Below are positions 11,733 through 34,831 of a stretch of 64,000 nt of DNA, piece by piece. The stretch is from Manihot esculenta (lineage: Eukaryota > Streptophyta > Magnoliopsida > Malpighiales > Euphorbiaceae): the NCBI RefSeq assembly GCF_001659605.2, contig NC_035172.2:18167051-18231050 (forward strand), in the 5' to 3' direction. Each line of letters opens with the position of its first letter. Position 1 is the stretch's first letter. The notes beneath the pieces were generated by a model. That model did not search any database and was not told the origin of the DNA. It worked only from the letters and a program-made list of their open reading frames with translations. Position numbers and translations under genes: made by a program.

Positions 11733-14004
11733 TGTAATACCCGGCTAGACTCCGGTATCGGAATTCCTACCGTCCGGTGGAATCCCGGGTGTCGGAGACC
11801 TCTAGAAGGGTAAAATCATGTTTTGTAAAATGTTTTAATGTATTTTGTGTTTTTAAGCTAGAAGGAAAATGAGTTTTTGCATGAAAATAGTCTTGGAGGA
11901 AAACTCAGGTTCGGCCGCCGAACCTCAAGTTTGGCCGCCGAACATGCATGCACTTCGGGAGTGCTTTAGGCCCCCGAAAGCATAAGTAAGGAAAGTCCAG
12001 GTTCGGCCGCCGAACCTTATGTTCGGCCGCCGAACATGGCATGCATGCGGAGGCACGTTCGGCTCCTGAATGTGGCCTGGCCAGCCACCTATAAAGGGGT
12101 CCCTTAGCCGAAATGGGCGACCTTTTCTCCCCATTGTCGGCCAAGGTGAGCTCTCCACCATCCTTCGCCGATTTCAAGTTTCTTCCTCCAAATCTTCCTG
12201 GATTTTCACAAGTTTTCACTTTGTTTTGAAGATTTTTTAGTATAAAGCAAGTTTTGGAGCTTTGAGGTTCAAGAAACTCAATCTCTCCCATCTTTGAGCT
12301 AGGGTCGTTTTCCTCTCGATCTTCAAGAGGTAAGGGCCGATCTTGAGCTCACTATATGTTTTAAACAAGTTTTAAGTTGATTCATGGGGTAGAAATGTAT
12401 GTTTATGTTAGTTGAGCATTGTTAGGTTTTATGTGTTTTATGGACAATATATGTTGGATATGCATGTTTGATGTGTTGTAGATGGGGTTTAGGATAGTTT
12501 GAGGCCCCTAGGAGCTGATGTATGTATCTATGCATGTTTTGGATGAGTTGTATGCTTGATTGAATGAAATAGGAGGCTTTTGTGCATGAAGAGCCGAGTT
12601 TCTGCCCTTTTGATAGAAACCAGGTTCGGCAGCCGAAGGACTTTCGGCCGCCGAACCTGCCTGGGAGGCAAGCCTTTCGGCTGTCGAAGTCTGCCCCCGA
12701 AAATGGACTTTCGTCTCTGGAAGGCACTTTCGGCCGCCGAAGGTGCCGCCGAACCTGCCTGACTTTCGGCTCTGGAGGGACTTTCGGCCGCCGAACCTGC
12801 CGCCGAAAGTGCCCTGTTCAGCCTTCCTTTGCATGTTTTGCATGATTGTTTTGAGGTGTTTTAGGGGGTTTTGGGGGGATTTTTTAGAGTCATGTTCTAG
12901 TTGTTTGGTCCCTCATTTGAGTCCACCTATGTAGGTTCGGACCCGAGGAACCGGGGACCCCAGTAGTGAGTCAGCTGCTTCAGTCTTTGTCTGAGCTAGC
13001 TGAGGTGAGTAGAATAAACCTTTACGTTTTAAAGCGAATAAATTATAAAGTTTTCAGCATGCTCATGCATCATGAATGCCATGTGATGATTTAGGTTGTT
13101 TGCATTAGAATTCACGAATATGTTGCATTACATTTTATGATGTTGATGCGGATTGGTTATTGGATGATCCTTTAGTCCTCATATGATATGATATGATGAT
13201 GATACGGCATGATATGGTATGGAAGTCCGGTTGACCCATTCTACGTCCCGGCACTATGTAAGAGAAAGACCGGTTGACCCATTCTACGTCCCGACACCTT
13301 GGAATGTTCTGATATGTTATGTTTAAGAGAAAGACCGGTTGACCCATTCTACATCCCGGCACTTTGGAATGTAGAGGACTATTGGTGACAATACCATCCT
13401 TGATGTGACTTGTTGTGATGTGTTGCATTACATGAGAACATGAGATTTTAAATATTTTATTATTTTGCTCACTGGGCTCTAGTAGCTCACCCCTCTCCCT
13501 AATCCCCCAGGTTTGCAGGTACGGGCTAGGCAGAGAAGTCAAGATGAATGAAGTCTTGTGTATGTAATAGTTAGAATATGGACATGATAAATTGTAAAAT
13601 GATGTAAAAGTTATGAATAGTTATGTCATGTAAATGTTGATTCTGAGATTGAGGTTTAGAAGTTGTGCTTGACCGAGTTTATATAGTAATCCCTTTTGTA
13701 AACATGATCTATGTTTTATGATGCTTATGTTCTACCAAGCTTGTGTATGATGAGATACCCCATTGGAGCATTTGGTTAGAGCTCCAGTGTGAGGTTTATG
13801 TTTATGTTTATATATATGCTTATGTGCATGCACAGGTTGAGCTTGGTAAAAGAAAAGAAAAGTCCAAATTTTTATGTATGTTGTTGATCATGTATGGGAT
13901 TAAACAGGTTTATAGGACGTATGTCAGGCTTGCTACGGGTCCCGGCGGCCTTATGCCGATCTGGATCCTAGCGCCGGTAGCGGTCTGATTTTCGGGTCGT
14001 TACA
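11733..14004 (+). repeat. Element B 5' LTR (2,272 bp)
   Basis: It starts TGTAATACCC and ends GGGTCGTTACA. TTCGGCCGCCGAA palindromes occur at 11910, about 12003 and repeatedly at 12620-12815. Three 'gacccattctacgtccc' minisatellite units lie at about 13230-13360. The partner LTR (24043-24204 plus 39581-41625) is about 2,207 bp; the 65-bp difference equals one minisatellite unit. Confidence 0.95.
12090..12095 (+). promoter_or_regulatory. TATA box in element B 5' LTR
   Basis: TATAAA sits in 'ccacctataaagggg'. The same box is at 39776-39781 in the 3' LTR. It lies just downstream of two copies of the TTCGGCCGCCGAA motif. Confidence 0.7.
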
Positions 14005-14007
14005 GAA

Positions 14008-14019
14008 TGGTATCAGAGC
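14008..14019 (+). other. Element B primer-binding site (tRNA-Met)
   Basis: TGGTATCAGAGC lies 3 nt after the LTR and is a perfect match to the plant initiator tRNA-Met PBS. Confidence 0.95.
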
Positions 14020-14275
14020 CCTAGGTTCATATGGTCGGACCTAGAGTGTCAGGCTCATAGATGTTATAGAAGGTCAAGCACAATAGGAAAATCATGTCCA
14101 TTAGGATAGGATAAAGAGTCATGTTTTGAATGATGATGTGAAATGCCATGAGTATATGCATGTGCATTAATGATATGTTATGATATGTGACGTATGTGAT
14201 GCGGATTCATGTGTTTCCACATGAACCATTTGATGCTAATGTTTATATGATGTGTACTGTTTTTCAGAAAATGGG

Positions 14276-17200
14276 ATGAGAGAAACTCGTCGATCTGCAC
14301 GATTGACTGGAGTACCACCTGAGGATGAGGGCACGAGCGCCCGTCCTCCTGCATTGCCTAAGGCAATGTCAAGTAGGTCCAGCAGAGAACGAGCAGCAAG
14401 AGACCTAAGAAGGTCTTTGGATCTGGGTAGGAGCAGATCAGTGAGGGGAACAGTTCAGGGAGGAATGTCAGAGGAAATGGGGGATGATATGGATGTGGAG
14501 CAAAGGAGGGATGGCAGTCTGGGAGTTAGCATGTCAGAAGAGGGAATGGGAGAGTCCCAAGGAGGCACTCAGGCCTCGGGATTTGTTCAGCCACCTTATC
14601 ACCCACCCTTCTCACAAAACCCCGGGTATTCGATGGGAGGCACATCGAATTACCATAGTTTTAACCCTTATCCCACACAGATGCCATACCCACCTTACTA
14701 TCCACCATATCCACAGTACCCAATGTATCCACTCCCGCCCTACCATCCAAATCCAGCAAACCCTATCCCAGGGGATGCTGCTCCTCCTCCTCCACCAGCA
14801 GAACCCACAGTTCCAGAAACCCCCGTACCTAAGCCTAACTCATCTGGTGGGAGCAAGGTCAAGATGACCGACTACATGAAGCTAGGTGCTCCTCAGTATG
14901 AAAAAGGGGATGACCCGTTTGTGTATCTTGAAAGGATTAAAGTGATCACAGATGAGATTCGGGCTGATGACAGTAGAGCCATTCAGATGGCTGCGTTCAC
15001 GCTTAAGTGCAAGAAGGCCCGAGAGTGGTTTAAGAATTATGTGAATCCGAGGGTGGATAGCATGTCTTGGGAAGAGTTTGCAAACGAGTTTGCAGGATGG
15101 GCTTTCCCTGATAGTTCAAGGGAGCTGAAGATGATCGAATTTGAGCAGTTAAGGCAGACAGAAGAGATGAGTGTGGATGAGTTCACAGACAGATTCTTGG
15201 AGCTGTTGCCATTTGCAGGGCAAAATCTTGACTCAGACTAGAAGAAGTCAAGGAGGTATATCATGAAACTCCACTCCAGATATTCCTCCTTGATCCAATC
15301 AGCAGATAGGGAGAGCTTCCATGCCATAGTGGATATGGCCCAGAAAATGGAGGCCAATGCCATCATTCAGGGGACAGTTAAACAATCAGTGGCACAGTCT
15401 TCTAGTTCTAAGACCCCGGGTGGGGGAAGGCTAGATCCCTCATCCTCAGGTTTAGCAGCTTCGGGCAGCAGAAAGTGGAGCAACACCACTAGGAAGCCCA
15501 AGAAGAACAAGTTCTGGAACAAGATGAAGTCCAGTCTTGGACTAGGGAGTGGCTCAAGCTCTGGTGCGGATAATGCTGTTTGTGCAAGGTGTGGTAAGCC
15601 ACACAAGGGAGTTTACCGGGCTGGGATAGCAGCCTGCTTCAGATGCGGGCAAGAGGGACACATGGCTCGGGAGTGTCCTAGGACAGTACCTATGGCTCAG
15701 TCCCAGCAGACAGCTTCAGGTAGTGTAGCGCAGCCAGCAGCTCTAGCCACGACTCAGGCCAGTGGCAGAGGCAGAGGGAGAGGGGCAGCCTTTTCTTCAG
15801 CGGGTTTCAGAGGTGAAGGTCCATCAGCTCCAGCACGGATCTTCACGATGACTCAGCAGGAGGCAGATGCATCTAACACCGTGGTGGCAGGTAACTTAGT
15901 CATTGGTTATTCAGATGTGTATGCCTTGATGGACCCTGGTGCATCTCATTCTTTTATTGCTCCGAGAGCCGTAGAGAGGTTGGGTTTGATGATCTCTGGG
16001 TTAGAGTGTCCTCTCTGGGTCAGTGGACCCAAGTGTGATCCATCAGTGGCAGAGTCAGTCTGCCAGTGCAGTCCAGTCTTTGTAGAGGGAAGATGCCTTT
16101 CTGCCGACCTTGTGGTTCTAGACTTGACAGATTTTGACGTCATTCTAGGGATGGACTGGTTATCTACCCATGGTGCTACCTTGGACTGCAGGGACAAAGT
16201 AGTCAGGTTCAGAGGTCAGGATGGGTCAGAGGTTGTCTTCAGGGGAGACAGGAGGGGTACACCTAGAGGTCTGATATCAGCTCTTCAGGCTCGTAGGTTG
16301 CTTAGGAAGGGATGTCAGGGGTATTTGGCTCATGTGAGAGAGCTTAGCAGTCAGGTTAGAGAGCCCGCCTCGGTGCCAGTGGTCAGAGAGTTCTTAGATG
16401 TATTTCCAGATGAGCTACCAAGTTTACCACCTGCTAGGGAGATAGAGTTCGAGATAGAATTGATGCTTGGAACCAGACCGATCTCTATCCCTCCCTACAG
16501 GATGGCTCCAGCTGAGTTGAAGGAATTGAAAGAACAGTTGCAAGAGCTTGTAGAAAAGGGCTTCATCCGACCGAGTACCTCACCTTGAGGTGCTCCAGTC
16601 TTATTTGTGAGAAAGAAGGATGAATCCCTTAGACTTTGTATCGACTACAGGCAGTTGAACAAAGTCACTACCAAGAACAGGTACCCTTTGCAAAGGATCG
16701 ATGATCTATTCGACCAGCTAGCAGGAGCGGGTTGTTTCTCCAAAATAGATCTGAGGTCCGGGTATCATCAGCTAAGGATCAGAGAAGAAGATGTGCCAAA
16801 GACGGCTTTCAGGACCAGATATGGGCATTTTGAGTTCCTTGTAATGCCGTTCGGGTTAACCAACGCCCCTGCAGCATTCATGGATCTCATGAATAGAGTG
16901 TTTAGCCAGTACCTGGATCACTTTGTGATTGTCTTCATAGATGATATCTTAGTGTATTCCAGGAATGCAGAGGAGCATGCCCATCATCTGAGGTTGGTTC
17001 TGCAGACCTTGAGGGAACACGGCTTGTATGCCAAGTTCTCCAAGTGTGAGTTCTGGTTGAGGAGCATCTCATTCTTAGGGCATGTTGTGTCAGAATATGG
17101 GATAGAGGTGGACCCCAAGAAGGTAGAAGCTGTGGCTAACTGGCCTAGACCCACTTCAGTGACAGAGATTAGAAGTTTCTTGGGTTTGGCAGGTTACTAC

Positions 17201-17281
17201 AGGAGGTTCGTTCAGGACTTCTCAAAAATTGCAGCTCCTCTAACCAGACTAACCAGGAAGAATCAAAAGTTTGTGTGGACT
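14276..17281 (+). pseudogene. Element B gag-protease-RT, 5' part of polyprotein
   Basis: One frame encodes Gag, then protease and reverse transcriptase. The start is the MRETRRSARLTG ATG, conserved in the family. In order: basic N-terminus, Pro/Tyr-rich segment, Gag core with [11 protein letters not shown], and the zinc knuckle [14 protein letters not shown] (near 15633). The upstream knuckle has lost its last Cys ([12 protein letters not shown]). Next come protease DPGASHSF (near 15931) and ILGMDWLS, and RT with CIDYRQLN and the catalytic FIDDILVYS (near 16932). Two stops break the frame: TAG at 15239 (CAG in A) and TGA at 16586 (TGG in A). The frame is interrupted at 17281 by element C after the RT (KFVWT) and resumes at 21941. 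Confidence 0.95.
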
Positions 17282-17450
17282 TGTAACAGCCCGGAAACCG
17301 GTACCCTGCCGTAACGGCTCCAAACTGTTCGGCGCTAGGATCCAGATCGGCTTAAGGCCGCCGGGTCCCGGCGGCCTTAAGCCGATATGGATCCTAGCGC
17401 CGAACAGTTTGGAGCTGTTACGGCAGGGTACCGGTTTCCGGGCTGTTACA
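17282..17450 (+). repeat. 169-bp palindrome replacing the 5' LTR of C
   Basis: Two 84-bp arms (17282-17365 and 17367-17450) are reverse complements with two mismatches and a single T at the centre (17366). The right arm equals the last 84 bp of the element's 3' LTR (21852-21935). The left arm is the same sequence inverted, so the element begins TGTAACAGCCC, the complement of its own U5 end, rather than TGTAATACCC. The centre falls in CGGGTCCCG, a 9-base palindrome already present in normal LTRs of the family (for example 21848-21856). A fold-back of the nascent strand at that mini-hairpin would give this structure. Confidence 0.95.
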
Positions 17451-17452
17451 GT

Positions 17453-17464
17453 TGGTATCAGAGC
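17453..17464 (+). other. Element C primer-binding site (tRNA-Met)
   Basis: TGGTATCAGAGC lies 2 nt after the palindromic left end and is a perfect match. Confidence 0.95.
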
Positions 17465-17738
17465 TTTGGGCCTCGAGAGTACGGTGTGTTGCACATCGGA
17501 AAGAGGTTAGTTTAGAGGTCATAGAAGGGCAAGCACAGTAGGAAAAATCATGTCCACTAGGATAGGATGTTGAGTCCTATCTTGATTGATGATGTGAAAT
17601 GCCATGAGTTATGCATGTGCATTAATGTTACGTTATGTATGATATGCTATGTATGTGTAGGTTCATGTGTTTTCATATGAACCGTATGATGCTAATGATT
17701 GTTTGTATGCGTGTGTGCTGTTCTTCAGAGGAGCCAGA

Positions 17739-18602
17739 ATGCGAGGTGCTCGTCGATCTGTGGAATCGACTGGAGTTCCATCTGAGAGGGAAGGTATGGA
17801 TACCTTTCCTGCTGCTCTGCCAAGAGCGCAATCATGGGGAGTTAGCAGATGGGGAACATCAAGGGACCCTGGAAGGTCTTTTGATGTAAGCAGAGAAGGA
17901 ATGGCTCCAAGAAGGATGTCAGCTAGTATGAGGGAAGTGGAGTTGGATGTTCAAAGAAGAGATATCAATTTGGGAATCAGAGTGCCAGAGGAAGGCATGG
18001 GAGATTCACAGGAGCGTGCTCAGACTCAGGATTCCAGGATCTCAAGTTCAGGAGGGATTGATCCCTCCACTCTGAGTACAGCTGCCTCAAGAGATAAAAG
18101 GTGGGGAAACACCACTAAGAAGGGGAACAGAGGCCTGAGAAGGTCGAAGAAGAGCAAGTTTTGGAATCGTTTGAAGGCTAGTCTGGGTTTTGGTGGTTCG
18201 AGCTCTGGCTCAGGCAGTTCAAGATGCATGAGGTGTGGAAGGCCACACAAAGGAGTCTGTCGAGTAGGGACTACAGCATGTTTTAGATGCGGTCAGGAAG
18301 GGCACATAGCACGTGAGTGTCCCACTGTGCCCAGGTTGGCTCCGTCCCAGCCAGCAGCTCCAGGTAGAACAGCTCAGCCAGTAGCTCCAACCATGTTTCA
18401 GGTTGGTGGTCGAGGCAGAGGAAGAGGGTCAGCCCCTCATTCCTCAGGTTTCCGTGGAGAAGGTCCGTCAGCTCCAGCTCGGATCTTCACCCAAGCTCAG
18501 CAGGAGGCAAACACATCGAACATGGTGGTGTCAGGTACGCTCACTTTTGAAAGTTCTGATGTGTATGTTTTTGTGAACCCTAGTGTTTTTCTCTTTCTTT
18601 AG
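17739..18602 (+). pseudogene. Element C gag with core deleted, fused to start of protease
   Basis: The ATG at 17739 begins MRGARRSVESTGVP, the family Gag start, after a 'ttcttcag' acceptor-like site. The basic N-terminus runs to GMGDSQERAQ and then jumps straight to RISSSGGIDPS. The Pro/Tyr-rich region and the whole Gag core (AREWF segment) are missing, a deletion of about 250 codons compared with B. The zinc knuckles CMRCGRPHKGVC and [14 protein letters not shown] are intact. The frame ends at 18602 within a degraded protease (VYVFVNP where relatives have VYALMDPGAS). A capsid without its core is unlikely to assemble, so C would have needed proteins from relatives. Confidence 0.9.
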
Positions 18603-19680
18603 TTGCTCTAGGAGCCGTTGAGAGGTTGAGTTGATAGCTTTTGGGCTAGAGTGTTCTCTTTGGGTCAGTAGACTCACGTGTGATCCATCTGGGGCAGAGT
18701 CAGTCTGCCGGTTCAGTTCTGTGTCAGTTGAGGGTAGATGCCTTCCACTCGATTTTGAGGTCCTAGACTTGACTGTCTGGACGTCAATCGAGGGATGGAT
18801 TGGTTTCTGCTTGTAGTGCTATCTTGGTCCGCAGAGACAAGGTAGTCAGGTTCATAGGACAGGATGGGTCAAGGGTTTTCTTCTGAGGGAACACAGTAGG
18901 GATGCCTAGAGGTCTGATGTCAGCCTATCAGGTTCGTAGGGTACATAGGAGGGGTTGTCAGAGGGTTCTAGCTCTTGTTTGAGAGTTTAGTCGTCAGGTC
19001 GGGGAACCAGCCTCAGTGTTAGTTGTTAGAGAGAGTTCTTAGTTGTTTTCCCAGGCTAGTTGTCAGGTTTACCACCTGTCAGGGAGTTAGAGTTTAGAGT
19101 AGGAGTGGTGTCTGGAACCAGAACCATTTCTTTCCTACCCTACAGGATGGCGCCTGCGTAGAGAGAGGTAGTAGTCAGAGTAGAGGCGAGACTTGGTAGA
19201 CAGGGGTTTTATCCGACCTAGTACCTCACCCTGGACTGTTCCAGTGTGGCGGTGGGAAAAGAAGGATGAATCCTTGAGACTTTGTAATAACTGTAAGCAG
19301 TTGACCAAGGTCACTACCAAGGGCAGGTATTCCCATGCAGGATGGATGATCTATTGGGACAGCTAGCAGAGGCTGTTTGTTTTCCAAGATAGATCTGAAA
19401 TCCGGGTACTACCTGTGAGAGTTAGAGTTAGTTTTGGGTTAGCAGTGAGAAGAAGCCAGTTGGTTAAGATGAAGAGAAGAGTAAGGATCAGAGTAGCGCA
19501 GTGGAAGCGTGTTGAGTTTCAGGAGAAGGTTGGGTATTGTTAAGGTGTTTCTTTTGGGAAAGGTGTGCCCAGAAGACCCAGGAGTTTTTACTCCAGCAGT
19601 ACCTGTGTCTCTCTTTTAGGAGAGAGGTTATTAGGTTTTGGCTTGCTTGTTTGCTTGCATGTTTTGTATGCCTGTTTGTT
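18603..19680 (+). pseudogene. Element C protease-RT-integrase scraps
   Basis: Broken translations can be followed: protease LECSLWVS and SVCRFSSVSVEGRCLP (18640-18760), the RT start near 19200-19350 ([12 protein letters not shown], DESLRLC-like, DDLLGQL-like), then a jump near 19415. Next come integrase C-terminal scraps (VEFQE near 19512) and the final 'QQYLCLSF' (19595-19617), equivalent to QQYPYLF in A and B. Most of RT, all of RNase H and most of integrase are missing, with many stops and frameshifts. The decay is far heavier than in the host element B, so the pol was probably already defective before this copy integrated. Confidence 0.75.
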
Positions 19681-19705
19681 GTGGAACATTCGGGGACGAA
19701 TGTTC

Positions 19706-19721
19706 TTAAAGGGGGGAAGAA
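19706..19721 (+). other. Element C polypurine tract
   Basis: 'aaaggggggaagaa' ends immediately before the LTR start TGTAATACCC. It primes plus-strand DNA synthesis. The preceding 'gaacattcggggacgaatgttc' contains an inverted repeat (gaacattcg / cgaatgttc) conserved in A, B and H. Confidence 0.9.
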
Positions 19722-21935
19722 TGTAATACCCGGCTAGATTCCGGCATCAGAATCCCTACCTTCCGGCAGAATCTCCGTTGGAATCTGGAATTTCTGAAGA
19801 TGCCAGAGGCTTCTAGAGGGGTAAAATGTGTTTTCTAAAAGGTTTTTACTGATTTCATGGTTTTAAATGGAAAAGAATTGAGTCTTGAAAAGAAAAAGAC
19901 CAAGGAGGCGTTTGCCAGGTTCGGCCGCCGAAAATGAAGTTCGGCCGCCGAACATGGAAAGGCTTCGGGAGCGCCTTTGGCCTCCGAAAGTCTTGTTTGA
20001 ACGAACCAAGGTTCGGCCGTCGAAAGTCAAGTTCGGCAGCCGAACATGCATGAGTTTAGGGGGCACGTTAGGCCGCCGAAGGTCTTCGACCAGGCCACCT
20101 ATAAAGAGCCCTCAGATCGGAAATGGGAGAGTTTTCTCCCCATTCTCGAGCTCAGGTGAGTTTTTGTCCTCCCTTGGCCGTTTTCATGTTCTTTCTTCAT
20201 CTCCTTCATGTTTTCATGAGTTCCATGGTGGTTTTGAAGAGTTTTCAAGCTTAGATCAAGTTTTGGGAGCTTGGAGCTTTTGGAGCTTGGATTCTCCACA
20301 CCTCCGAGTTAGGGATCACACCACCCTCGATCTTCAAGAGGTAAGTGTAGATCTTTGCTTCCCTAGTGTTTTTATAAAGTTTTATGAAGGTTTTAATGGT
20401 AGAGTATGGGTAGATATGCATGTTAGGATTTATGTGGGTTTTATGCCCAATGTATGTTATGTGATGTTTGTGTTGAGGAGTTTATGTTAGTTTATGCTCC
20501 TTTATGCTTGTGGGAGTGAGTATGCATGATTGGGAAAGAGTATGTAAGGATTTGGGTGTTTTCTATGCATGTTTTAGTGAGGTTTAGAGGGTTTTTTTGG
20601 GGGTATGTTTATGAGTTGTTTAGAGTATGTTTGGCACCTCATTCGAGTCCACCTGTGTAGGATCGGACCCGAGGGACCGAGGAGGCCAGTAGTGCTAGCA
20701 GTTGCAGAGTCAGTCAGCGTCTGCCAGGAGGTGAGTAGAACTAACTTAATCTTTTATTTTAATAAAATCAAATGCCTAAAGCATGCTCATGCATCATGTT
20801 TATATGTAATAGGATGATTGCATTAGTTTCACGAATGTGATGCATTGCATAAATTGTTGATTATATGATGAGATGGGTGGACCAAGGCGACCTCAATAGC
20901 CCGTAAGTCTGTCATTGAGTCCTTGTTAGTCGGGCGAGTACATGTAGGAAAGCCCAATGAGAGCTCCTTCGGAGCCGAGTTATGACAGAGGGAATGTTGG
21001 GGTCATGTCTAACCCTGAGGGGAAGGACGTTTCGAGAACCCTCTAAAATCACCCGCGAGAGGAAGAGAATGCTAGCGTGAACTCAAGCGGGAGTGAAAAG
21101 GATTGTTGTGTAATAGTTGTGATATGGCGCATTTCATGAAAGCATGTAATTAATGAACTGTTTTCTCTGTTTCTACTCACTGGGCTTTTTAGCTCATCCC
21201 TTTCCCCTAATCCCAGTTTTGCAGGGCTAAAGTCAAGTCAGAGTGATCTATGGGAAGTATCAGAGTATAAGCATGGGCTTGGTTGTAATAGCTTAGCTTA
21301 GTTTTGTTATAGTGGTATGTATATGTTTATGGATATAAAGAGATGTTATGCTTTGTTTTGTATGCTTGACTAGTTTAGTTAATGGACATGATTGTAAAGA
21401 GAAAGTCATGATGTATATAAAGATTATGAATGGAAAGAGCTATGTTGATAGAGATAGAGTAAAGTTAAGAAAAGCTTGGTAATGTCATGTGAATGTCATG
21501 AAAGGATAGAGTAGTGCTTTGCCCTAGTGTTTGGTTGAATCCCTTGGTTTATGCATGATCATTCTAAAACGATTTATGAAAGGTTTTCATGATGTGAATT
21601 GTTTTATGCTATGAGTTTGAACGGCCGTGAGGGAAGAAAGGGTTTCAATCCCTTGACCCAAGCGGACGTGGTTTTAAGGTTAGCTTGATGACCCATCGGG
21701 TATGAGGTTCTATGTTCTCGCGCATAGATCAAGCCAAGTTAGGTAAAACAAGTTTTAAAGATTAGTATGAAAAGTTTAAGTTTTCACGAAAAGTTTGATC
21801 ATGTATGGGATTAGACCCGAGGTTTAGCATGTTTAGTGGCTTGCTACGGGTCCCGGCGGCCTTAAGCCGATCTGGATCCTAGCGCCGAACAGTTTGGAGC
21901 CGTTACGGCAGGGTACCGGTTTTCGGGCTGTTACA
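19722..21935 (+). repeat. Element C 3' LTR (2,214 bp)
   Basis: It begins TGTAATACCCGGCTAGATTCC and ends CGGGCTGTTACA. TATAAA is at 20100-20105 and a splice-donor-like AAGAGGTAAG near 20336. TTCGGCCGCCGAA motifs occur at about 19919 and 19939, with fewer copies in the leader than in A and B. The middle (20870-21100) differs from A and B and lacks the gacccattctacgt minisatellite. Its last 84 bp are the template of the left-end palindrome. Confidence 0.95.
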
Positions 21936-21940
21936 GGACT

Positions 21941-23935
21941 GACCAGTGCGAAGAGAGTTTTGAAGAGCTTAAGAAGAGGTTAACGTCAGCACCAGTGTTA
22001 GCTTTGCCAGCTAGCAATGAGGATTTCACAGTTTTCTGTGATGCATCCCGAGTGGGATTGGGTTGTGTGTTAATGCAGAATGAAAGGGTGATTGCTTATG
22101 CTTCTAGACAGCTGAAGAAGCATGAGTTGAATTACCCCACACATGACCTGGAGATGGCAGGAGTAATCTTTGCACTCAAGATGTGGAGGCACTACCTCTA
22201 TGGGGTTAAATGTGAGATCTTCACAGATCATAAGAGCCTGCAGTACATCCTGAGTCAAAGAGATTTGAACTTGAGACAGAGAAGATGGGTAGAGCTGCTG
22301 AGTAATTATGATTGCAAGATTCAGTACCATCCGGGTAAGGCGAATGTTGTGGCAGACGCTCTAAGCCGGAAATCACTAGGCAGTCTATCCCACGTCACGG
22401 CGGAGAGGAGACCAGTGGTGAAGGAGTTTTACAAGCTCATTGATGAAGGTCTACAGTTGGAGTTGTCTGGTACAGGTGCATTGATTGCTCAGATGATAGT
22501 GGCACCCGTGTTTCTGGAGCAGGTGGCTCAGAAACAGCATGAGGACCCAGAATTAGTGAAGATTGCCAGGGCTGTTCAGTCAGGCAAAGATAGTGAGTTC
22601 AGATTCGACAACAAGGGGATCCTCCGCTATGGGAGCCGATTGTGTGTACCAGACGACATAGGGCTAAAAGGAGACATTATGAGAGAGGCTCATAATGCAA
22701 GATACAGCGTTCACCCCGGAGCCACCAAGATGTATCAAGATCTGAAGAAAGTTTATTGGTGGCCAGCTATGAAGAGAGAAGTGGCACAGTTTGTGTCAGC
22801 CTGCGAAGTGTGTCAGAGGGTGAAGCTGGAACATCAGAAGCCGGCTGGAATGCTTAACCCGCTACCTATTCCAGAGTGGAAATGGGAAAATATAGCTATG
22901 GACTTCGTAGTGGGGTTACCGGCGACGTCCAACAGATTGGACTCCATATGGGTGATTGTGGACAGACTCACCAAATCTGCTCACTTCATCCCTGTCAGGA
23001 GTGGCTATTCTGTGGACAAGTTGGCGCAGGTGTATGTTGATGAGATCGTCAGGTTGCATGGGGTTCCTGTTTCGATAGTGTCCGATAGAGGACCCCAGTT
23101 CACCTCCAGGTTTTGGCGGAGTCTGCAAAATGCTATGGGTACCAGGTTGGATTTCAGTACTGCCTTCCATCCATAGACAGACGGACAATCAGAGAGGACC
23201 ATCCAGACGATAGAGGATATGCTTAGAATGTGTGTGCTGGATTTTGGCGGTTCTTGGAGGCAGCATGTACCCTTGGTTGAGTTTGCCTACAATAACAGCC
23301 ATCATGCTAGCATCGGTATGGCTCCATATGAAGCTTTATATGGAAGGAAGTGCAGGTCACCTGTTTGCTGGGAGGAAGTTGGAGAGAAGGCCTTGGCAGG
23401 GCCTGAGCTAGTAGAGATCACCAGCAGGGTGGTACCCATAATCAGAGAAAGAATCAAGACTGCTGCAAGCAAACAGAAGAGTTATGCAGACCTCCGCAGA
23501 AGGCAAGTAGAGTTTCAGGAGGGAGATCTGGTATTGCTCAAGGTGTCTCCTATGAAAGGAGTGGTTCGCTTTGGGAAGAAAGGTAAACTAGCCTCACGAT
23601 ACATCGGACCCTTTGAAATCTTGCAAAAGATTGGGAATGTGTCGTGCAAGCTGGATTTACCTGCTTCAATGGAAAGAATCCATCCGGTTTTCCATGTTTC
23701 AATGTTAAGAAAGTTTGTATCAGATCCGGGCAAGGTTCTTAGTGAGCCTGATGTGGAGATCCAAGAAGATCTCACCTATGTTGAACAGCCAGTACGGATC
23801 ATAGACACCCAGATTAGGAAGTTGAGGAACAAGGAAATCCCGATGGTGAAAGTCCTTTGGAACCACCACAATATGGAAGAATGCACTTGGGAGACACGGG
23901 AGTCCATGTTCCAGCAATACCCTTATCTTTTCTAA
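21941..23935 (+). pseudogene. Element B RNase H-integrase-chromodomain, 3' part of polyprotein
   Basis: This continues the 14276-17281 frame after element C. RNase H starts near [13 protein letters not shown] (22022) and includes [11 protein letters not shown] and ADALSRKS (22350). Integrase has the HHCC zinc finger ([12 protein letters not shown] to CEVCQ, 22710-22820) and the D,D,E residues in MDFVVGLP (22899), SDRGPQFTS (23080) and GQSERTIQ (23185). The C-terminal tail has [11 protein letters not shown] and a chromodomain-like end ([17 protein letters not shown]), closing with QQYPYLF and TAA at 23933. One stop breaks it: TAG at 23174 (HPQTDG in A, CAG). Apart from its three stops, B pol keeps all the visible catalytic residues. 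Confidence 0.95.
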
Positions 23936-24027
23936 GGTTAGTTCCTTGTGAGTTCATGTGTTTTATATGTATGTTATGTTGTGTGCCTTGCATGTGCTAG
24001 TTGAGGAACATTCGGGGACGAATGTTC

Positions 24028-24042
24028 TTAAAGGGGGGAGAA
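24028..24042 (+). other. Element B polypurine tract
   Basis: 'taaaggggggagaa' lies directly before the 3' LTR start, after the same 'gaacattcggggacgaatgttc' motif as in C. Confidence 0.9.
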
Positions 24043-24204: not shown

Positions 24205-24997
24205 TGTAACGACCCAAAAGTCGGACCGCTACTGGCGCTAGGATCCAGATCGGCTTAAGGCCGCCGGGACCCATAGCAAGCCTGACATGTAACCTGTAAA
24301 CCTGTTTAATCCCATACATGATCAACAATCATACAAAAAAATTAAAACTTTTCTTTCGTTCATTTTCTCATACACCAACTCAACCTGTGCATGCACTAAA
24401 CATAAACATAATCATAAACATTGCCCCTCTGTGGGACCTCATCAATGCCCCCAATGGGTGGCATAACATGTGTTGAGTTGGTTTACATAAACATCATAAA
24501 AGATCTAGGATCATGCATTAAAAGGGATACCATACACATAGGGTCAAGCACAATCTCTAATCCTCAAGGTCATTACATTACATAACTATTCACAACTCTA
24601 CATCATCTTACAATTTATCATGTCCACTTTCTAACTATTACAATTACAAGACTTTACTCTTCTTGACTTCTCTGTCTAGCCCGTACCTGCAATCCTGGGG
24701 GATTAGGGAAAAGGGGTGAGCTACTAGAGCCCAGTGAGCAGAATAATAAACCATTTGAAACATATGATAACATGAAATGCATCACATCACAGCTAATCAC
24801 ATCAAGGATGAATTTGTCACCAATAGTCCTCTACATGTTCCAACTATGCCAGGGGCGTAGAATGGGCCTCACTGGTCTTTCTCTTACATAATCATAACAT
24901 AGCATGACATAACATTCCATAATGCCAGGGGCGTAGAATGGGCCTCACTGGTCTTTCGTACCGTATCATCATCATATCATAATATACGAGGACTAAA

Positions 24998-27651
24998 TGT
25001 AACATCCTCAAACCCATAGGTAGAGTAGTGCCATCGTTAGGCTATTTCATTCCTAGAGTAAGTGGCATTAGGGGAGGTGCTAGCTTAACTCTAATCTGCT
25101 AATAACTGAATCATAGAAAACTTAAATAAAGAAACGGACATATCCAGAAATAAAGCAGACAGTGTGATTAGCGAGTCGGGAACGAGTCACTTTCGGGAGG
25201 TGCTTAGGATTTTCCGACGTGCTTGCTTGAGGTGCTTGTTTATATCCGTCATGCTTGCTTAAGTGAAAAGGGCTTCTAAAGGCTATATATATAGTTTAGT
25301 AGGTCAATCTATGAATATTGAAAGTTTAAAAACTAAATTGAAACATTGGAAAGAGTTTAGTAGGTTAAAGTAGAAATATGGAAAGTTAAAACATAAAAAT
25401 TCAGATTTACTTTCCATGTGTCTCCTACCTAAGGAGAGAAGAAATGACAATGCAAAAGAAAGAAAAGGGATTGTCTTCTTCCTTTGTCCATGTTGCCGTA
25501 GGTCATCCAACTTCAAAGAAGAAAAAAATTTGCTTTTCTTTCTCCCACCAAAGCCAAGCCAAAACCTTACCAAAACAACTTCTTCCTTTAACCAAAATTC
25601 ATCCTCAGATCAAGAGCTAAAGGAACAGCCATATAGTGAAAGAATTGAAGAAGAAAAGTTGAGGGTTCCATATGCACCAAGCTTGAAAATCAAAGGTGAG
25701 CTTAGAAATGAGTAGGAAATAGCATCATCTCATTTCTTCATGCATGAATTTGAATTATAAAGTTTTAATTTACAATTTATTCAGTCCTTCCCTAAGATAT
25801 AAATTGGCATAGGTGAAGGAACATCAAAGGGAAAGGAGATAGCTAGAGATTAGAAGAGGAAAAGAAAAGAAGAATTCAAGAAAGGTTTGGTGTTTTAATG
25901 ATTTTCTGTTTTCCTTTGATTCTGCCATGAATAAGTGAAATTAGAGGTTGATTTTACTTGCTGAAAATGTTGCGTTGATTGTATAAATATGTTATATGAA
26001 TGTTAAAATGATGTTTGAAAGGCTTAGAGTAAAGAAATTTAACATGGGAGCTAAAAGTGTAAATATGGCAGAATAGGTTGTAACAGGACAGCTTGTGTTA
26101 CTAACTTCATAACTTCTTGTGTATATATTGAAATTAGGCCTAAAATATACCAAATGAAAGCTAAGACAAATATCTAAAACTTTTATGAATTGAAAAAATT
26201 CTGAATCTGTAGTTAAAATGATGAAAATTGCAAGTGAACCTAAAATGGACACAGTGGTAGTGCATCCGGAACAGAGTCTATTGATTATACCATAACTAAT
26301 TACATACTTAGTGAAATTTGTTAAGACCAGTGCCAAATGAATCTTAAGAAGTATACCTAAAACTTTGTAGAAGACATTTAAGCTTGAATTTGTATGCAAA
26401 TGTATGAATCTGATAAGTTTTGTGATACTATTAACAAGTACCAATACTGAACTGATTAAGACCTTATTGAGCAGCTTGTAAAGAAAAATTCATAACTTAA
26501 GCTAGGATGATCAGATTTGCATGAACCATACCTTGTTGGAAAGATAAGACATAAATATACATTTATTATGAAGAAACTGAAGTCAAATTGTAACTCTAAA
26601 CTGCTTGAAAAGTTTATGCAATATATGGCAGAATGTAGTTTTCTATATTGAAATGCTAAGTCAATAAAGTTTTGCACTATTTGCCATGAGTTTTCCATAT
26701 TGTAAACCTTGGCATATGATATATGTACTTTGGAAAAAGAAATCAAATAGCTTCAAATGACATGCATTTACATTGATACATTGAGTTAATGATACTTGGC
26801 CCTGGTAAACGTAATAGGAGTCGAGGTTAGCTTAAGGGTATGGCATGCCATATAAATATACAGAGTTCGCAGTACTGCTACCGATACATGATCTATATTA
26901 GAGGTTACATATCTGGTACCTCATAAGCATGGCCACAGAGCCCTGCTATCACAGTTTTGGCCTCTGAGCCTACCGTTCGGCACCCTGTGCCTACCGTTAT
27001 AACTCCTTATCTACCTAGTCGATCCTACTATGTGGTTATAAGGGCTAAGATCTTAATTAAGATTGATACTTGATTTTGTGAACTTATTGGTGAATGTTAA
27101 CATGTTTACATCTACTAGCTTGTAATTGTTTACTTGATTATCTATTTATGCGAGCTTGTTTGTTTTATTCTGTTATTTGTTGTTATCACCCACTGAGCAT
27201 TAGCTCAGCGTGTTGGTTTTTACCTCACGCAGGTTGTAGATAACGTAGGCACGTGAAGTTCATCAGAGGTCTACATCAGATACCAAGGCCATTATCATAG
27301 CTGGTTGTTTTGAGTCTCTGAGTCATAGTGCAGTTATAATTTGGCATGTACATATTTAATAGAGTGAGTTGTAAAGGTTATGTAATCAAAGAATAGTAAG
27401 ATGTCAAATATCAGTTGATAATTTTTCATGTGTTTTTCATGTGCTACAGTTTGAAATATTAATGAAACAGATGAGACTCTGTTAACTTTTTGGTTTAAAA
27501 TCTCACATTTATTTGATGAAATTTACATGCATTACCTTAAAACTTGATATTTACAGATAAAGGTAATTGATTAGTTGTGATATATCTAAAAAGGTATAGT
27601 TTGTGACATTCCTTGCTCTGTCTACTCTTTGATAGGGTAAGGGGTGTTACA
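24998..27651 (+). repeat. Element E 5' LTR, full length (2,654 bp)
   Basis: It runs from TGTAACATCC to GGGGTGTTACA, with a PBS 5 nt further on. A TATATATA run at 25284-25292 is the likely promoter. The first ~1,080 bp exist only here; the other three LTR copies start at the equivalent of 26078. It contains 'cccactgagcattagctcag' near 27188, related to the CACTGGGCT..TAGCTCACC block of the A/B family. Confidence 0.93.
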
Positions 27652-27656
27652 ATTAG

Positions 27657-27668
27657 TGGTATCAGAGC
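27657..27668 (+). other. Element E primer-binding site, unit 1 (tRNA-Met)
   Basis: TGGTATCAGAGC is a perfect match, 5 nt after the LTR. The identical site recurs at 31173-31184 and 34689-34700 in units 2 and 3. Confidence 0.95.
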
Positions 27669-27799
27669 ATAGGTTTAGGCGGTTCTAGGTCATAGTATGT
27701 ATGTGTATATGCATAGTATATGTACATGCCAAAATGAGTTACAGCTATGATATGGTTCTGATGTAAATCTCTTCTTTTTGTGTTTAGGTCGTATATAAG

Positions 27800-29599
27800 A
27801 TGTCATCTGACTCACAGAGAGCAATAGATGAGGAGGTAGAGAGTCATGCTCCCTCTAAGGCAGCTGCACCTGCTGCTACTCCTCCACCTGCTGCTGCTGG
27901 CGGACTAGGGCAGGATGCATTATTTCAGCAAATAGCTGAGTTGCTTAGGAGGGTTACACAAAATGTACCAGAGGTACCACCACCACCACCTGTAGCAGTC
28001 CAGGTTCCCCCACCTGTGGTCGCTAGGCCTCCAATAGAAAAACTCAGAAAGTATGGTGCAACAGATTTTAGAGGTAAAAAGGAAGATGATCCTTCAGCTG
28101 CAGAATTCTGGTTAGAAAGTACAGAAAGGGTTTTACAGCAGCTACAGTGTTCACCAGTAGATAGCTTGATGTGTGCAGTATCATTGCTAAAAGATGAAGC
28201 GTATCGATGGTGGACAACTTTAACACAGATGGTTCGACCAGAGCGCCAGACTTGGGAATTCTTTTTGTCAGAGTTTAAGAAGAAGTATGTTGGGGCCTTA
28301 TATATAGAGGAGAGAAGGAGGGAGTTCTTATACCTCAGACAGGGCAGGCTTACAGTAACTGAGTACGAGCGAGAATTTGTCAGACTTAGTAAGTATGCCA
28401 CAGAGATAGTTCCTACAGAGGAAGAAAGATGTAAACGCTTTGAGCAGGGATTACATGCTGATATCAGGATGTACCTCACAGCTATGCATATCAGGGAACT
28501 TTCAGTTTTAGTAGATACGGCCCACAGCCTGGAGCGCATTAAAGAAGAAGAGCAAAGTAGAAGGCAGAAAGGGCAGCAGAAGAGGAGTCAGAGCCAGTAT
28601 CAGGGACAATCCTCTGCATCACAGACAAGTAGTAAGAGACAGAGGGAATTTCAGCAGACAGGGCAGAGAGGACCACCTAGGCAGATTCAGAGACCTGGGC
28701 AGAGTTCAGTAGTAAGGTCTGGACAGCAGACTACCTCAGTATCCAGTACAGGAGGACCAGGCAGAGGGTTGCCACCAGTATGTGAGCATTGTGGCAGGAG
28801 ACATGGTGGAGTATGTAGGTGATTGACTGGGGCTTGCTACTTATGTGGAAGCTCAGACCACTTTATGAGGGATTGTCCTAGAGGCCAGTCAATGCAGCCT
28901 ATACAGACAGAGAAATCTTTGCCGACAGGGTCTAGAGGCAGAGGTAGAGGTAGAGGTGAATCTAGCAGTGCTCAGAGTCACAGAGTATCAGAGACAGTAG
29001 ATAGACCAGACACTAGAGCACCTGCCAGAGCATATGCCATTCGTGCAAAGGAAGACCAGGACAAACCAGATGTTATTGCTGGTAAATTTTCTATCTTTGG
29101 CAAATATGTTTATGCATTAATTGATCCTGGTTCCACACATTCATACATCAGCATACCCATCAGTAATGAGAAGGGAATGCAAGTAGAACCCTTAGAACAT
29201 GACATAGCAGTGACCAATCCCTTAGGACATCTTGTGATTGTGAATAGAGTTTATAGAGATTGTCCTATAGGTGTACAAGGTCATACCTTTTTAGGTGACT
29301 TGATAGAGTTACCTTTTAGAGAGTTTGATGTGATTTTGGGTATGGATTGGTTGTCTAGACATCATGTCATAGTTGACTGTAAGTTAAAACGAGTTACACT
29401 CAAAACATTAGAGGGTTCTGAGGTTATAGTTGTGGGCGAGAGGTCAGATTACCTCTCTAATGTCATATCTGCCACTACAGCTAGGAGGTTGATTAGAAAA
29501 GGCTGTACAGCCTATCTGGCTAGTGTAACTGAAACTAAAAAGGAAGGGCCTAATGTGTCAAACCTACCCACAGTATGTCATTTTCCAGATGTATTGTAA
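27800..29599 (+). pseudogene. Element E GAG-PRO, unit 1 (one stop)
   Basis: This is the same 600-codon frame as unit 3 (34832-36631), broken by a TGA at 28820 where unit 3 has AGA. The start is the MSSDSQRAIDEE ATG, 132 nt downstream of the PBS. It comprises an Ala/Pro-rich N-terminus, the Gag core (AEFWLESTERVL to EFVRLSKYA), zinc knuckles and retropepsin. The frame ends FPDVL because the fused LTR supplies TAA immediately after the seam; intact relatives continue there into the RT linker (FPDVFPDELP). The stop falls between the two zinc knuckles and would release a Gag lacking the second knuckle and protease. Confidence 0.93.
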
Positions 29600-31167
29600 C
29601 AGGACAGCTTGTGTTACTAACTTCATAACTTCTTATGTATATATTGAAATTAGGCCTAAGATATACCAAATGAAAGCTAAGACAAATATCTAAAACTTTC
29701 ATGAAATGAAAAAATTCTGAATCTGTAGTTAAAATGATGAAAATTGCAAGTGAACCTAAAATGGACACAGTGGTAGTGCATCCGGAACAGAGTCTATTGA
29801 TTATACCATAACTAATTACATACTTAGTGAAATTTGTTAAGACCAGTGCCAAATGAATCTTAAGAAGTATACCTAAAACTTTGTAGAAGACATTTAAGCT
29901 TGAATTTGTATAGAAATGTATGAATCTGATAAGTTTTGTGATACTATTAACAAGTACCAATACTGAACTGATTAAGACCTTATTGAGCAGCTTGTAAAGA
30001 AAAATTCATAACTTAAGCTAGGATGATCAGATTTGCATGAACCATACCTTGTTGGAAAGATAAGACATAAATATACATTTATTATGAAGAAACTGACGTC
30101 AAATTGTAACTCTAAACTGCTTGAAAAGTTTATGCAATATATGGCAGAATGTAGTTTTCTATATTGAAATGCTAAGTCAATAAAGTTTTGCACTATTTGC
30201 CATGAGTTTTCCATATTGTAAACCTTGGCATATGATATATGTACTTTGGAAAAAGAAATCAAATAGCTTCAAATGACATGCATTTACATTGATACATTGA
30301 GTTAATGATACTTGGCCTTGGTAAACGTAATAGGAGTCGAGGTTAGCTTAAGGGTATGGCATGCCATATAAATATACAGAGTTCGCAGTACTGCTACCGA
30401 TACATGATCTATATTAGAGGTTACATATCTGGTACCTCATAAGCATGGCCACAGAGCCCTGCTATCACAGTTTTGGCCTCTGAGCCTACCGTTCGGCACC
30501 CTGTGCCTACCGTTATAACTCCTTATCTACCTAGTCGATCCTACTATGTGGTTATAAGGGCTAAGATCTTAATTAAGATTGATACTTGATTTTGTGAACT
30601 TATTGGTGAATGTTAACATGTTTACATCTACTAGCTTGTAATTGTTTACTTGATTATCTATTTATGCGAGCTTGTTTGTTTTATTCTGTTATTTGTTGTT
30701 ATCACCCACTGAGCATTAGCTCAGCGTGTTGGTTTTTACCTCACGCAGGTTGTAGATAACGTAGGCACGTGAAGTTCATCAGAGGTCTACATCAGATACC
30801 AAGGCCATTATCATAGCTGGTTGTTTTGAGTCTCTGAGTCATAGTGCAGTTATAATTTGGCATGTACATATTTAATAGAGTGAGTTGTAAAGGTTATGTA
30901 ATCAAAGAATAGTAAGATGTCAAATATCAGTTGATAATTTTTCATGTGTTTTTCATGTGCTACAGTTTGAAATATTAATGAAACAGATGAGACTCTGTTA
31001 ACTTTTTGGTTTAAAATCTCACATTTATTTGATGAAATTTACATGCATTACCTTAAAACTTGATATTTACAGATAAAGGTAATTGATTAGTTGTGATATA
31101 TCTAAAAAGGTATAGTTTGTGACATTCCTTGCTCTGTCTACTCTTTGATAGGGTAAGGGGTGTTACA
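29594..31167 (+). repeat. Element E truncated LTR, copy 1 (1,574 bp)
   Basis: It equals 26078-27651 of the full LTR and begins in 'ttgtaacagg' immediately after 'ccagatgta' of the protease. It lacks the first ~1,080 bp, including the TATA-like promoter, and has no PPT before it. Confidence 0.95.
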
Positions 31168-31315
31168 ATTAGTGGTATCAGAGCATAGGTTTAGGCGGTT
31201 CTAGGTCATAGTATGTATGTGTATATGCATAGTATATGTACATGCCAAAATGAGTTACAGCTATGATATGGTTCTGATGTAAATCTCTTCTTTTTGTGTT
31301 TAGGTCGTATATAAG

Positions 31316-33115
31316 ATGTCATCTGACTCACAGAGAGCAATAGATGAGGAGGTAGAGAGTCATGCTCCCTCTAAGGCAGCTGCACCTGCTGCTACTCCTC
31401 CACCTGCTGCTGCTGGCGGACTAGGGCAGGATGCATTATTTCAGCAAATAGCTGAGTTGCTTAGGAGGGTTACACAAAATGTACCAGAGGTACCACCACC
31501 ACCACCTGTAGCAGTCCAGGTTCCCCCACCTGTGGTCGCTAGGCCTCCAATAGAAAAACTCAGAAAGTATGGTGCAACAGATTTTAGAGGTAAAAAGGAA
31601 GATGATCCTTCAGCTGCAGAATTCTGGTTAGAAAGTACAGAAAGGGTTTTACAGCAGCTACAGTGTTCACCAGTAGATAGCTTGATGTGTGCAGTATCAT
31701 TGCTAAAAGATGAAGCGTATCGATGGTGGACAACTTTAACACAGATGGTTCGACCAGAGCGCCAGACTTGGGAATTCTTTTTGTCAGAGTTTAAGAAGAA
31801 GTATGTTGGGGCCTTATATATAGAGGAGAGAAGGAGGGAGTTCTTATACCTCAGACAGGGCAGGCTTACAGTAACTGAGTACGAGCGAGAATTTGTCAGA
31901 CTTAGTAAGTATGCCACAGAGATAGTTCCTACAGAGGAAGAAAGATGTAAACGCTTTGAGCAGGGATTACATGCTGATATCAGGATGTACCTCACAGCTA
32001 TGCATATCAGGGAACTTTCAGTTTTAGTAGATACGGCCCACAGCCTGGAGCGCATTAAAGAAGAAGAGCAAAGTAGAAGGCAGAAAGGGCAGCAGAAGAG
32101 GAGTCAGAGCCAGTATCAGGGACAATCCTCTGCATCACAGACAAGTAGTAAGAGACAGAGGGAATTTCAGTAGACAGGGCAGAGAGGACCACCTAGGCAG
32201 ATTCAGAGACCTGGGCAGAGTTCAGTAGTAAGGTCTGGACAGCAGACTACCTCAGTATCCAGTACAAGAGGACCAGGCAGAGGGTTGTCACCAGTATGTG
32301 AGCATTGTGGCAGGAGACATGGTGGAGTATGTAGGAGATTGACTGGGGCTTGCTACTTATGTGGAAGCTCAGACCACTTTATGAGGGATTGTCCTAGAGG
32401 CCAGTCAATGCAGCCTATACAGACAGAGAAATCTTTGCCGACAGGGTCTAGAGGCAGAGGTAGAGGTAGAGGTGAATCTAGCAGTGCTCATAGTCACAGA
32501 GTATCAGAGACAGTAGATAGACCAGACACTAGAGCACCTGCCAGAGCATATGCCATTCGTGCAAAGGAAGACCAGGACAAACCAGATGTTATTGCTGGTA
32601 AATTTTCTATCTTTGGCAAATATGTTTATGCATTAATTGATCCTGGTTCCACACATTCATACATCAGCATACCCATCAGTAATGAGAAGGGAATGCAAGT
32701 AGAACCCTTAGAACATGACATAGCAGTGACCAATCCCTTAGGACATCTTGTGATTGTGAATAGAGTTTATAGAGATTGTCCTATAGGTGTACAAGGTCAT
32801 ACCTTTTTAGGTGACTTGATAGAGTTACCTTTTAGAGAGTTTGATGTGATTTTGGGTATGGATTGGTTGTCTAGACATCATGTCATAGTTGACTGTAAGT
32901 TAAAACGAGTTACACTCAAAACATTAGAGGGTTCTGAGGTTATAGTTGTGGGCGAGAGGTCAGATTACCTCTCTAATATCATATCTGCCACTACAGCTAG
33001 GAGGTTGATTAGAAAAGGCTGTACAGCCTATCTGGCTAGTGTAACTGAAACTAAAAAGGAAGGGCCTAATGTGTCAAACCTACCCACAGTATGTCATTTT
33101 CCAGATGTATTGTAA
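31316..33115 (+). pseudogene. Element E GAG-PRO, unit 2 (one stop)
   Basis: Identical in layout to unit 3. TAG at 32171 replaces a Gln codon (CAG in units 1 and 3), truncating Gag to 285 residues before the zinc knuckles. The remainder stays open, with CYLCGSSDHFMRDC and DPGSTHS, to the TAA at the LTR seam (33113). It differs from units 1 and 3 by a handful of substitutions, for example Q-to-H after the RGRGRG stretch. Confidence 0.93.
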
Positions 33116-34683
33116 CAGGACAGCTTGTGTTACTAACTTCATAACTTCTTGTGTATATATTGAAATTAGGCCTAAGATATACCAAATGAAAGCTAAGACA
33201 AATATCTAAAACTTTCATGAATTGAAAAAATTCTGAATCTGTAGTTAAAATGATGAAAATTGCAAGTGAACCTAAAATGGATACAGTGGTAGTGCATCCG
33301 GAACAGAGTCTATTGATTATACCATAACTAATTACATACTTAGTGAAATTTGTTAAGACCAGTGCCAAATGAATCTTAAGAAGTATACCTAAAACTTTGT
33401 AGAAGACATTTAAGCTTGAATTTGTATGGAAATGTATGAATCTGATAAGTTTTGTGATACTATTAACAAGTACCAATACTGAACTGATTAAGACCTTATT
33501 GAGCAGCTTGTAAAGAAAAATTCATAACTTAAGCTAGGATGATCAGATTTGCATGAACCATACCTTGTTGGAAAGATAAGACATAAATATACATTTATTA
33601 TGAAGAAACTGAAGTCAAATTGTAACTCTAAACTGCTTGAAAAGTTTATGCAATATATGGCAGAATGTAGTTTTCTATATTGAAATGCTAAGTCAATAAA
33701 GTTTTGCACTATTTGCCATGAGTTTTCCATATTGTAAACCTTGGCATATGATATATGTACTTTGGAAAAAGAAATCAAATAGCTTCAAATGACATGCATT
33801 TACATTGATACATTGAGTTAATGATACTTGGCCCTGGTAAACGTAATAGGAGTCGAGGTTAGCTTAAGGGTATGGCATGCCATATAAATATACAGAGTTC
33901 GCAGTACTGCTACCGATACATGATCTATATTAGAGGTTACATATTTGGTACCTCATAAGCATGGCCACAGAGCCCTGCTATCACAGTTTTGGCCTCTGAG
34001 CCTACCGTTCGGCACCCTGTGCCTACCGTTATAACTCCTTATCTACCTAGTCGATCCTACTATGTGGTTATAAGGGCTAAGATCTTAATTAAGATTGATA
34101 CTTGATTTTGTGAACTTATTGGTGAATGTTAACATGTTTACATCTACTAGCTTGTAATTGTTTACTTGATTATCTATTTATGCGAGCTTGTTTGTTTTAT
34201 TCTGTTATTTGTTGTTATCACCCACTGAGCATTAGCTCAGCGTGTTGGTTTTTACCTCACGCAGGTTGTAGATAACGTAGGCACGTGAAGTTCATCAGAG
34301 GTCTACATCAGATACCAAGGCCATTATCATAGCTGGTTGTTTTGAGTCTCTGAGTCATAGTGCAGTTATAATTTGGCATGTACATATTTAATAGAGTGAG
34401 TTGTAAAGGTTATGTAATCAAAGAATAGTAAGATGTCAAATATCAGTTGATAATTTTTCATGTGTTTTTCATGTGCTACAGTTTGAAATATTAATGAAAC
34501 AGATGAGACTCTGTTAACTTTTTGGTTTAAAATCTCACATTTATTTGATGAAATTTACATGCATTACCTTAAAACTTGATATTTACAGATAAAGGTAATT
34601 GATTAGTTGTGATATATCTAAAAAGGTATAGTTTGTGACATTCCTTGCTCTGTCTACTCTTTGATAGGGTAAGGGGTGTTACA
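33110..34683 (+). repeat. Element E truncated LTR, copy 2 (1,574 bp)
   Basis: Same seam and same length as copies 1 and 3, ending GGGGTGTTACA directly before unit 3's PBS. A few scattered substitutions separate the copies. Confidence 0.95.
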
Positions 34684-34831
34684 ATTAGTGGTATCAGAGC
34701 ATAGGTTTAGGCGGTTCTAGGTCATAGTATGTATGTGTATATGCATAGTATATGTACATGCCAAAATGAGTTACAGCTATGATATGGTTCTGATGTAAAT
34801 CTCTTCTTTTTGTGTTTAGGTCGTATATAAG

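Follow-up and report, generated by a model that had tools for sequence, protein, structure and literature searches.

Nested LTR retrotransposons at the locus

The window analyzed in this work is a 64,000-nt stretch of the Manihot esculenta genome (NC_035172.2, positions 18,167,051 to 18,231,050), which contains a nest of LTR retrotransposons. Positions are given below in the numbering of the window.

8557-48139, + strand: element A, target-site duplication (TSD) AGTAG, enclosing B
11733-41625, + strand: element B, TSD GAAGG, enclosing C and D
14005-24042, + strand: internal region of B (chromovirus-like Ty3/gypsy), with its pol gene interrupted by C
17282-21935, + strand: element C, a defective LTR element of the Ty3/gypsy type inside the pol gene of B
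24205-39575, - strand: element D, a solo-LTR-like insertion in the 3' LTR of B, split by array E, TSD GTCTT
24998-38199: array E, within LTR D, with a single TSD, CTAAA

The plus-oriented elements A and B, which we take to be Tekay/Del-like chromoviruses, have intact left LTRs with canonical U3 left ends and perfect TSDs. D exhibits one U3 end and one U5 end, i.e. the end types of A and B in reverse, and also has a perfect TSD. Four Pfam profiles (RVT_1, RT_RNaseH, Integrase_H2C2 and rve) match B above their cut-offs, the Chromo profile scores 24.4 bits against a cut-off of 25.1, and a stop codon is found inside the integrase.

In array E, an apparently full left LTR (24998-27651) precedes three copies of a 3516-nt unit, each composed of 1943 nt of internal sequence and the last 1573 nt of the LTR; the LTR parts differ from each other at 5-9 of 1573 positions and the internal parts at 3-7 of 1943. 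The internal region always ends at the joint between CCAGATGTAT and TGTAACAGG and runs straight into the middle of the LTR, so that the right side of the unit lacks U3. Tandem LTR elements in plants are described in the cited part of PMC11899658; the partial-LTR unit of E may have originated by a repeated misdirected first strand transfer or by later unequal recombination. Pairs of palindromic motifs of the GTTCGGCCGCCGAAC type, 92 nt apart, were found near the start of four LTR copies in the region examined (10001-40000):

11906-12048: left LTR of B
19916-20058: right LTR of C
39270-39412: LTR D
39592-39734: right LTR of B

Anatomy of element C

The following features were identified in element C and at its borders.

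17277-17281: left TSD, GGACT
17282-17365, - strand: left arm, an inverted copy of the terminal 84 nt of the LTR, with the U5 end outward (TGTAACAGCCCG...)
17362-17370: switch point, with the mini-palindrome CGGGTCCCG, which occurs natively at 21847-21855
17366: central base of the palindrome, which is T on the + strand, as on the + strand of the native LTR
17367-17450, + strand: right arm, the same terminal 84 nt in their usual orientation, the sole remnant of the 5' LTR
17453-17464, + strand: primer-binding site (PBS) TGGTATCAGAGC, 2 nt past the U5 end
17661 to about 18602, + strand: reading frame with a zinc knuckle (Pfam), a gag/NC remnant
18231-19408, + strand: segment aligning with the zinc-knuckle/protease/early-RT region of B (about 75%); the remaining pol is absent
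19708-19720, + strand: polypurine tract (PPT) AAAGGGGGGAAGA
19722-21935, + strand: right LTR, complete, 2214 nt, TGTAATACCCGG...GGGCTGTTACA
21936-21940: right TSD, GGACT

Both the right LTR and the junction of U5 with the PBS are intact, with the dinucleotide GT separating the right arm from the PBS, which is presumably of the tRNA-iMet type, and with the PPT placed before U3. The canonical pair of direct TG...CA LTRs is absent: the left side contains only 84 nt of the LTR (89 nt if the right arm is counted from 17362, with the common mini-palindrome included) and their inverted copy. Thus, element C is a derivative of a Ty3/gypsy LTR retrotransposon, not a canonical member of this group.

Comparison of the internal region of C (2271 nt) with the part of B left of C yielded three aligned pieces (63-247, 299-336 and 781-1958), which correspond to 5' parts of gag and to the region from the zinc knuckle to early RT, and the part of B right of C aligned only with the last 44 nt before the LTR. 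The alignment gap suggests that C has lost a part of gag relative to B, along with nearly all of pol. A Pfam scan of one reading frame identified only the zinc knuckle, and C has no RT-RNaseH-integrase module of its own. Since these parts of gag and pol are missing, the enzymes would have been supplied by a helper element, and we regard C as non-autonomous and probably mobilized in trans.

A palindromic left end flanked by a perfect TSD

A preliminary description of this locus, made from the sequence, had claimed that C lacks U3 at its left, where instead the terminal 84 bp of the element occur twice, head to head around a single T. This is indeed the case: the two 84-nt arms around T17366 are complementary at 82 of 84 positions, and the outer left end is the exact U5 terminus TGTAACAGCCCG, the reverse complement of the element's own U5 end, instead of the U3 terminus TGTAATACCCGG with which A and B begin. 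Exact matches to the 12-mer TGTAACAGCCCG were found in the window only in both arms and at the end of the right LTR of C. The possibility that an ordinary 5' LTR had been misread as a palindrome was considered and rejected, as only 19 of the 84 positions of the left arm are identical with the start of U3 (in an ungapped comparison that counts the common TGTAA). A second, inverted element at the same place was also rejected, because it would have to be inserted exactly at the border of the TSD.

The insertion itself proved to be as regular as the preliminary description had proposed. The perfect 5-bp TSD GGACT flanks C, with the exact U5 terminus next to it on both sides, and in silico excision of C restores a continuous pol frame of B between the RT and RNase H matches. 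The TSD and the restored host frame together mark an insertion of the integrase type.

A scan of the 64-kb window for near-palindromes (40-nt arms, at most 6 mismatches, centre of at most 20 nt) reported 26 combinations of centre and spacing, which fall in only two places, the left end of C and 58036-58090. The latter place harbors a near-palindrome at 58001-58083 (41-nt arms, 98%, 1-nt centre), located inside a minus-oriented LTR (56747-59150), the partner of which extends beyond the window, and placed between the direct repeats 57977-58055 and 58075-58153. This arrangement looks like a turn-back and a return switch at CTTTCGGC-G-GCCGAAAG, and the duplication suggests that turn-back switching occurs in the LTR family of C, without telling at which stage.

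At the junction in C, the sequence follows the inverted LTR as far as CGGG and the direct LTR from CGGGT onward. The turning point coincides with a natural mini-palindrome of the LTR, as had been noticed before; the 2214-nt LTR has 10 perfect palindromes in which arms of at least 4 nt surround a single central nucleotide, CGGGTCCCG being one of them. The 19-mer spanning the junction found no match with up to 3 mismatches in 100 shuffles. The structure, its termini, the TSD, the turning point and the central base are all directly visible in the sequence. The identity of the central base is informative: as the + strand has T, the minus strand joined to the interior of the element follows the native sequence to the end of CGGGACCCG before it turns back.

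Substitutions and age

Both arms were compared with the terminal 84 nt of the right LTR (21852-21935). Counted from the U5 end, the right arm departs from this sequence at positions 64, 35 and 13, and the left arm at position 13 only. The right arm hence has two private changes and the left arm none, with the left arm agreeing with the right LTR at both sites where the arms differ, and a single site separates the right LTR (T at position 13) from both arms (C). Assuming that both arms and the right LTR were initially identical, the substitutions number 0, 2 and 1 in the left arm, right arm and right LTR, respectively, which is compatible with equal ageing (P = 0.78, from three changes only).

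These three substitutions argue against an artefact of the reads, although short palindromes are known artefacts of assembly and library preparation. A fold-back read or chimera of the present sequence is hard to reconcile with a left arm that sides with the distant LTR against the arm adjacent to it, and the palindrome stops exactly at the TSD, with the host frame continuing beyond; we therefore give very little credence to an artefactual origin of the structure. The two LTRs of B align in three pieces, with differences at 4 of 162, at 39 of 1420 and at 12 of 681 positions (the second and third piece overlap) and with additional gaps, which amounts to a divergence of about 2-3%. The insertion of B and the three changes in C thus appear to be of a similar order of age, and three changes permit nothing finer.

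Origin of the two U5 ends

We consider it probable that an error in reverse transcription produced a cDNA bounded by U5 termini on either side and that integrase inserted this molecule as C. In support of U5-type ends joined on both sides, which the preliminary description had regarded as probable, the U5 terminus is exact, the TSD is perfect, and the host frame is restored; we infer the use of two U5 ends by integrase strongly and the route by which such a cDNA arose with moderate confidence. The additional claim that the minus strand folded back and primed its own synthesis before integration holds in part: a switch at the mini-palindrome before integration is favoured, though not proven, but plain self-priming predicts a central A, where T is found.

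Which molecules paired, and when, we reconstruct as follows. During the copying of U5 of the left LTR, the minus strand would have been extended as far as ...CGGGACCCG, and this 3' end would have annealed to the identical palindrome of a second minus DNA, an early tRNA-primed copy of a co-packaged RNA. Both 3' ends would then have copied the opposite strand through to its 5' end, whereby the minus strand of the element would acquire an inverted U5 reaching to the exact start of tRNA-primed synthesis, the second minus DNA would become the plus strand of the left end, and U3 and R of the left side would never be copied. The expected product is a linear duplex, the left end of which would consist of the exact U5 terminus plus two nt and would present the same substrate as the right end; integrase would trim the two U5 ends, and an ordinary insertion would follow. 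Such pairing of minus strands at CGGGACCCG would thus account for the observed sequence and leave both U5 ends open. A fold of the element-attached minus strand on itself was considered as well and rejected, as it would give a closed hairpin without a free U5 terminus.

A related possibility is that self-primed minus strong-stop DNA replaced the plus-strand strong-stop DNA in the second strand transfer. Such a hairpin donor could provide two open U5 ends and the PBS tail in one event, and its predicted product has the correct length of 169 nt with five mismatches, namely the centre, the two changes of the right arm, and position 13 counted in both arms. Self-priming of HIV-1 minus DNA, which speaks both for this reading and for the pairing of two minus strands, was reportedly described by Guo et al. 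in 1997. According to the cited part of PMC4668388, early minus (strong-stop) DNA of HIV-1 indeed primes itself, and nucleocapsid lowers this activity. However, a hairpin donor predicts A at 17366 on the + strand, so that an extra transversion would be needed to explain the observed T, and the junction hairpin is weak (-0.6 kcal/mol, 3 bp). In addition, the PBS of Ty1 and Ty3 is not copied from the primer tRNA, as stated in the cited part of PMC5371799, and the details of retroviral strand transfer may accordingly not carry over to C. Altogether, we regard this origin as improbable. The weak hairpin also counts against the pairing of two minus strands. A self-priming hairpin of negative energy occurs at 85 of 2195 possible 3' ends, and the switch point of C is not among the best 25; the RNA and DNA folds around the switch site are not unusual (z = -0.79, -0.60 and -0.58), thus no special pause is evident there.

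The alternative that deserves most attention, although we consider it unlikely, is that a normal insertion was rearranged later, through template switching of a Pol theta-like or microhomology-mediated type that repaired a break or a stalled fork within the 5' LTR. In this case, the 3' end on the left, ...GGACT-TGTAA, would have paired with the inverted TTACA at the end of the LTR, copied 84 nt of inverted U5 and jumped back at CGGG, with a loss of about 2.1 kb of U3-R. This scenario is compatible with the central T and makes use of the common 5-nt inverted terminus (TGTAA/TTACA) of both LTR ends and of the 4-nt microhomology (CGGG) at the right junction. The inverted duplication at 58001-58083, likewise with a 1-nt centre, indicates turn-back switching at some stage in a related LTR, and the shared C at position 13 is what copying of the left arm from the right arm after insertion would leave, which counts against the switch before integration. 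Repair nonetheless requires two switches, and the exact U5 terminus at the TSD would have to result from the choice of one of 102 microhomologies of at least 5 nt with the last 84 nt in inverted form, or of 3828 if the entire inverted LTR is considered (candidate left junctions were 100 nt of host sequence plus the first 2125 nt of the LTR), while pairing of minus strands before integration yields this terminus automatically.

A further point against the minus-strand pairing comes from the LTR itself. A TATA motif occurs at similar LTR offsets in C (379, one of 4 TATA matches) and B (358, one of 5), which would imply an R-U5 of about 1.8 kb; with such a length, the switch would have occurred only 89 nt into R-U5.

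Comparison with known systems

Among the papers listed in a search of open-licence literature, we found no precedent for an LTR element integrated with two U5 ends. Searches of viral contigs reported no matches to the U5 end and none to the U5 core, and of two stretches that matched the pattern of the RNaseH-integrase of B none was confirmed. The GC-rich 19-mer of the junction matched at least 119 stretches of a contig collection, and the 80 matches listed carry prokaryote titles; this pattern is uninformative. A protein search with the reading frame of the palindrome returned 2 hits from 2 candidates (72-74% query coverage), and judging from the protein letters only, both contain LATG(P/L)GGLKP, the reading of the ordinary LTR and not that of the palindrome.

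Element C resembles canonical Ty3/gypsy chromoviruses such as A and B in its TG...CA termini, its 5-bp TSD, a PBS identical with that of B, its PPT, and its related LTR and gag, but differs from them in the missing left U3-R, the inverted U5 at the left end, and the loss of a part of gag and nearly all of pol. In HIV-1 strong-stop self-priming, as described in the cited part of PMC4668388, a minus 3' end likewise switches back onto minus-sense DNA where the sequence is self-complementary, yet the products there are aberrant cDNAs, whereas C is an integrated copy with two U5 ends and a TSD, and its central base argues against plain self-priming. The DIRS-1 group of tyrosine-recombinase retrotransposons shares with C the presence of inverted terminal repeats; however, according to the cited part of PMC5633606, these are two whole inverted LTRs and a tyrosine recombinase is thought to integrate circles, while C does not have two whole inverted terminal repeats but one full direct right LTR and an 84-nt inverted left end, with a 5-bp TSD of the integrase type and integrase-encoding relatives.

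At the junctions of retroviral 2-LTR circles, end sequences also meet in a palindrome that integrase can recognize, but in the cited part of PMC1905944 U5 is joined to U3 in a short junction that places both CA ends within the circle, whereas in C U5 meets U5 at an internal point of the LTR, with the CA ends on the outside. Provirus ends are likewise abnormal in aberrant HIV integrations by host repair; according to the cited part of PMC5041404, such ends are joined by the host and accompanied by deletions, duplications or rearranged host DNA, in contrast to the perfect 5-bp TSD of C. Finally, the tandem LTR retrotransposons of plants are rearranged LTR elements in a single TSD, as is array E, but the cited part of PMC11899658 describes direct repeats and mentions no inverted end, such as the one found in C.

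Implications

Without a left U3, C should not be capable of normal transcription of itself. The evidence comes from one locus, with no second copy of the palindromic end seen in the window, and it is from this locus that we infer the mechanism. It is conceivable, though we rate it as doubtful, that pairing of minus-strand 3' ends at the conserved U5 mini-palindrome is recurrent in this LTR family and that integrase regularly inserts such two-U5 cDNAs, giving rise to a class of promoterless copies without a 5' LTR that is overlooked by annotation based on LTR pairs. The signature of a TSD followed by inverted U5, U5 and the PBS can be searched for in any plant genome. If our interpretation is true, C is a natural genomic record of an integrase that completed a TSD-making insertion with two U5 ends, and the turn-back products of minus strands, known from work on HIV, can integrate and be inherited. 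Some elements annotated as lacking a 5' LTR would then represent complete integration events, not decay.
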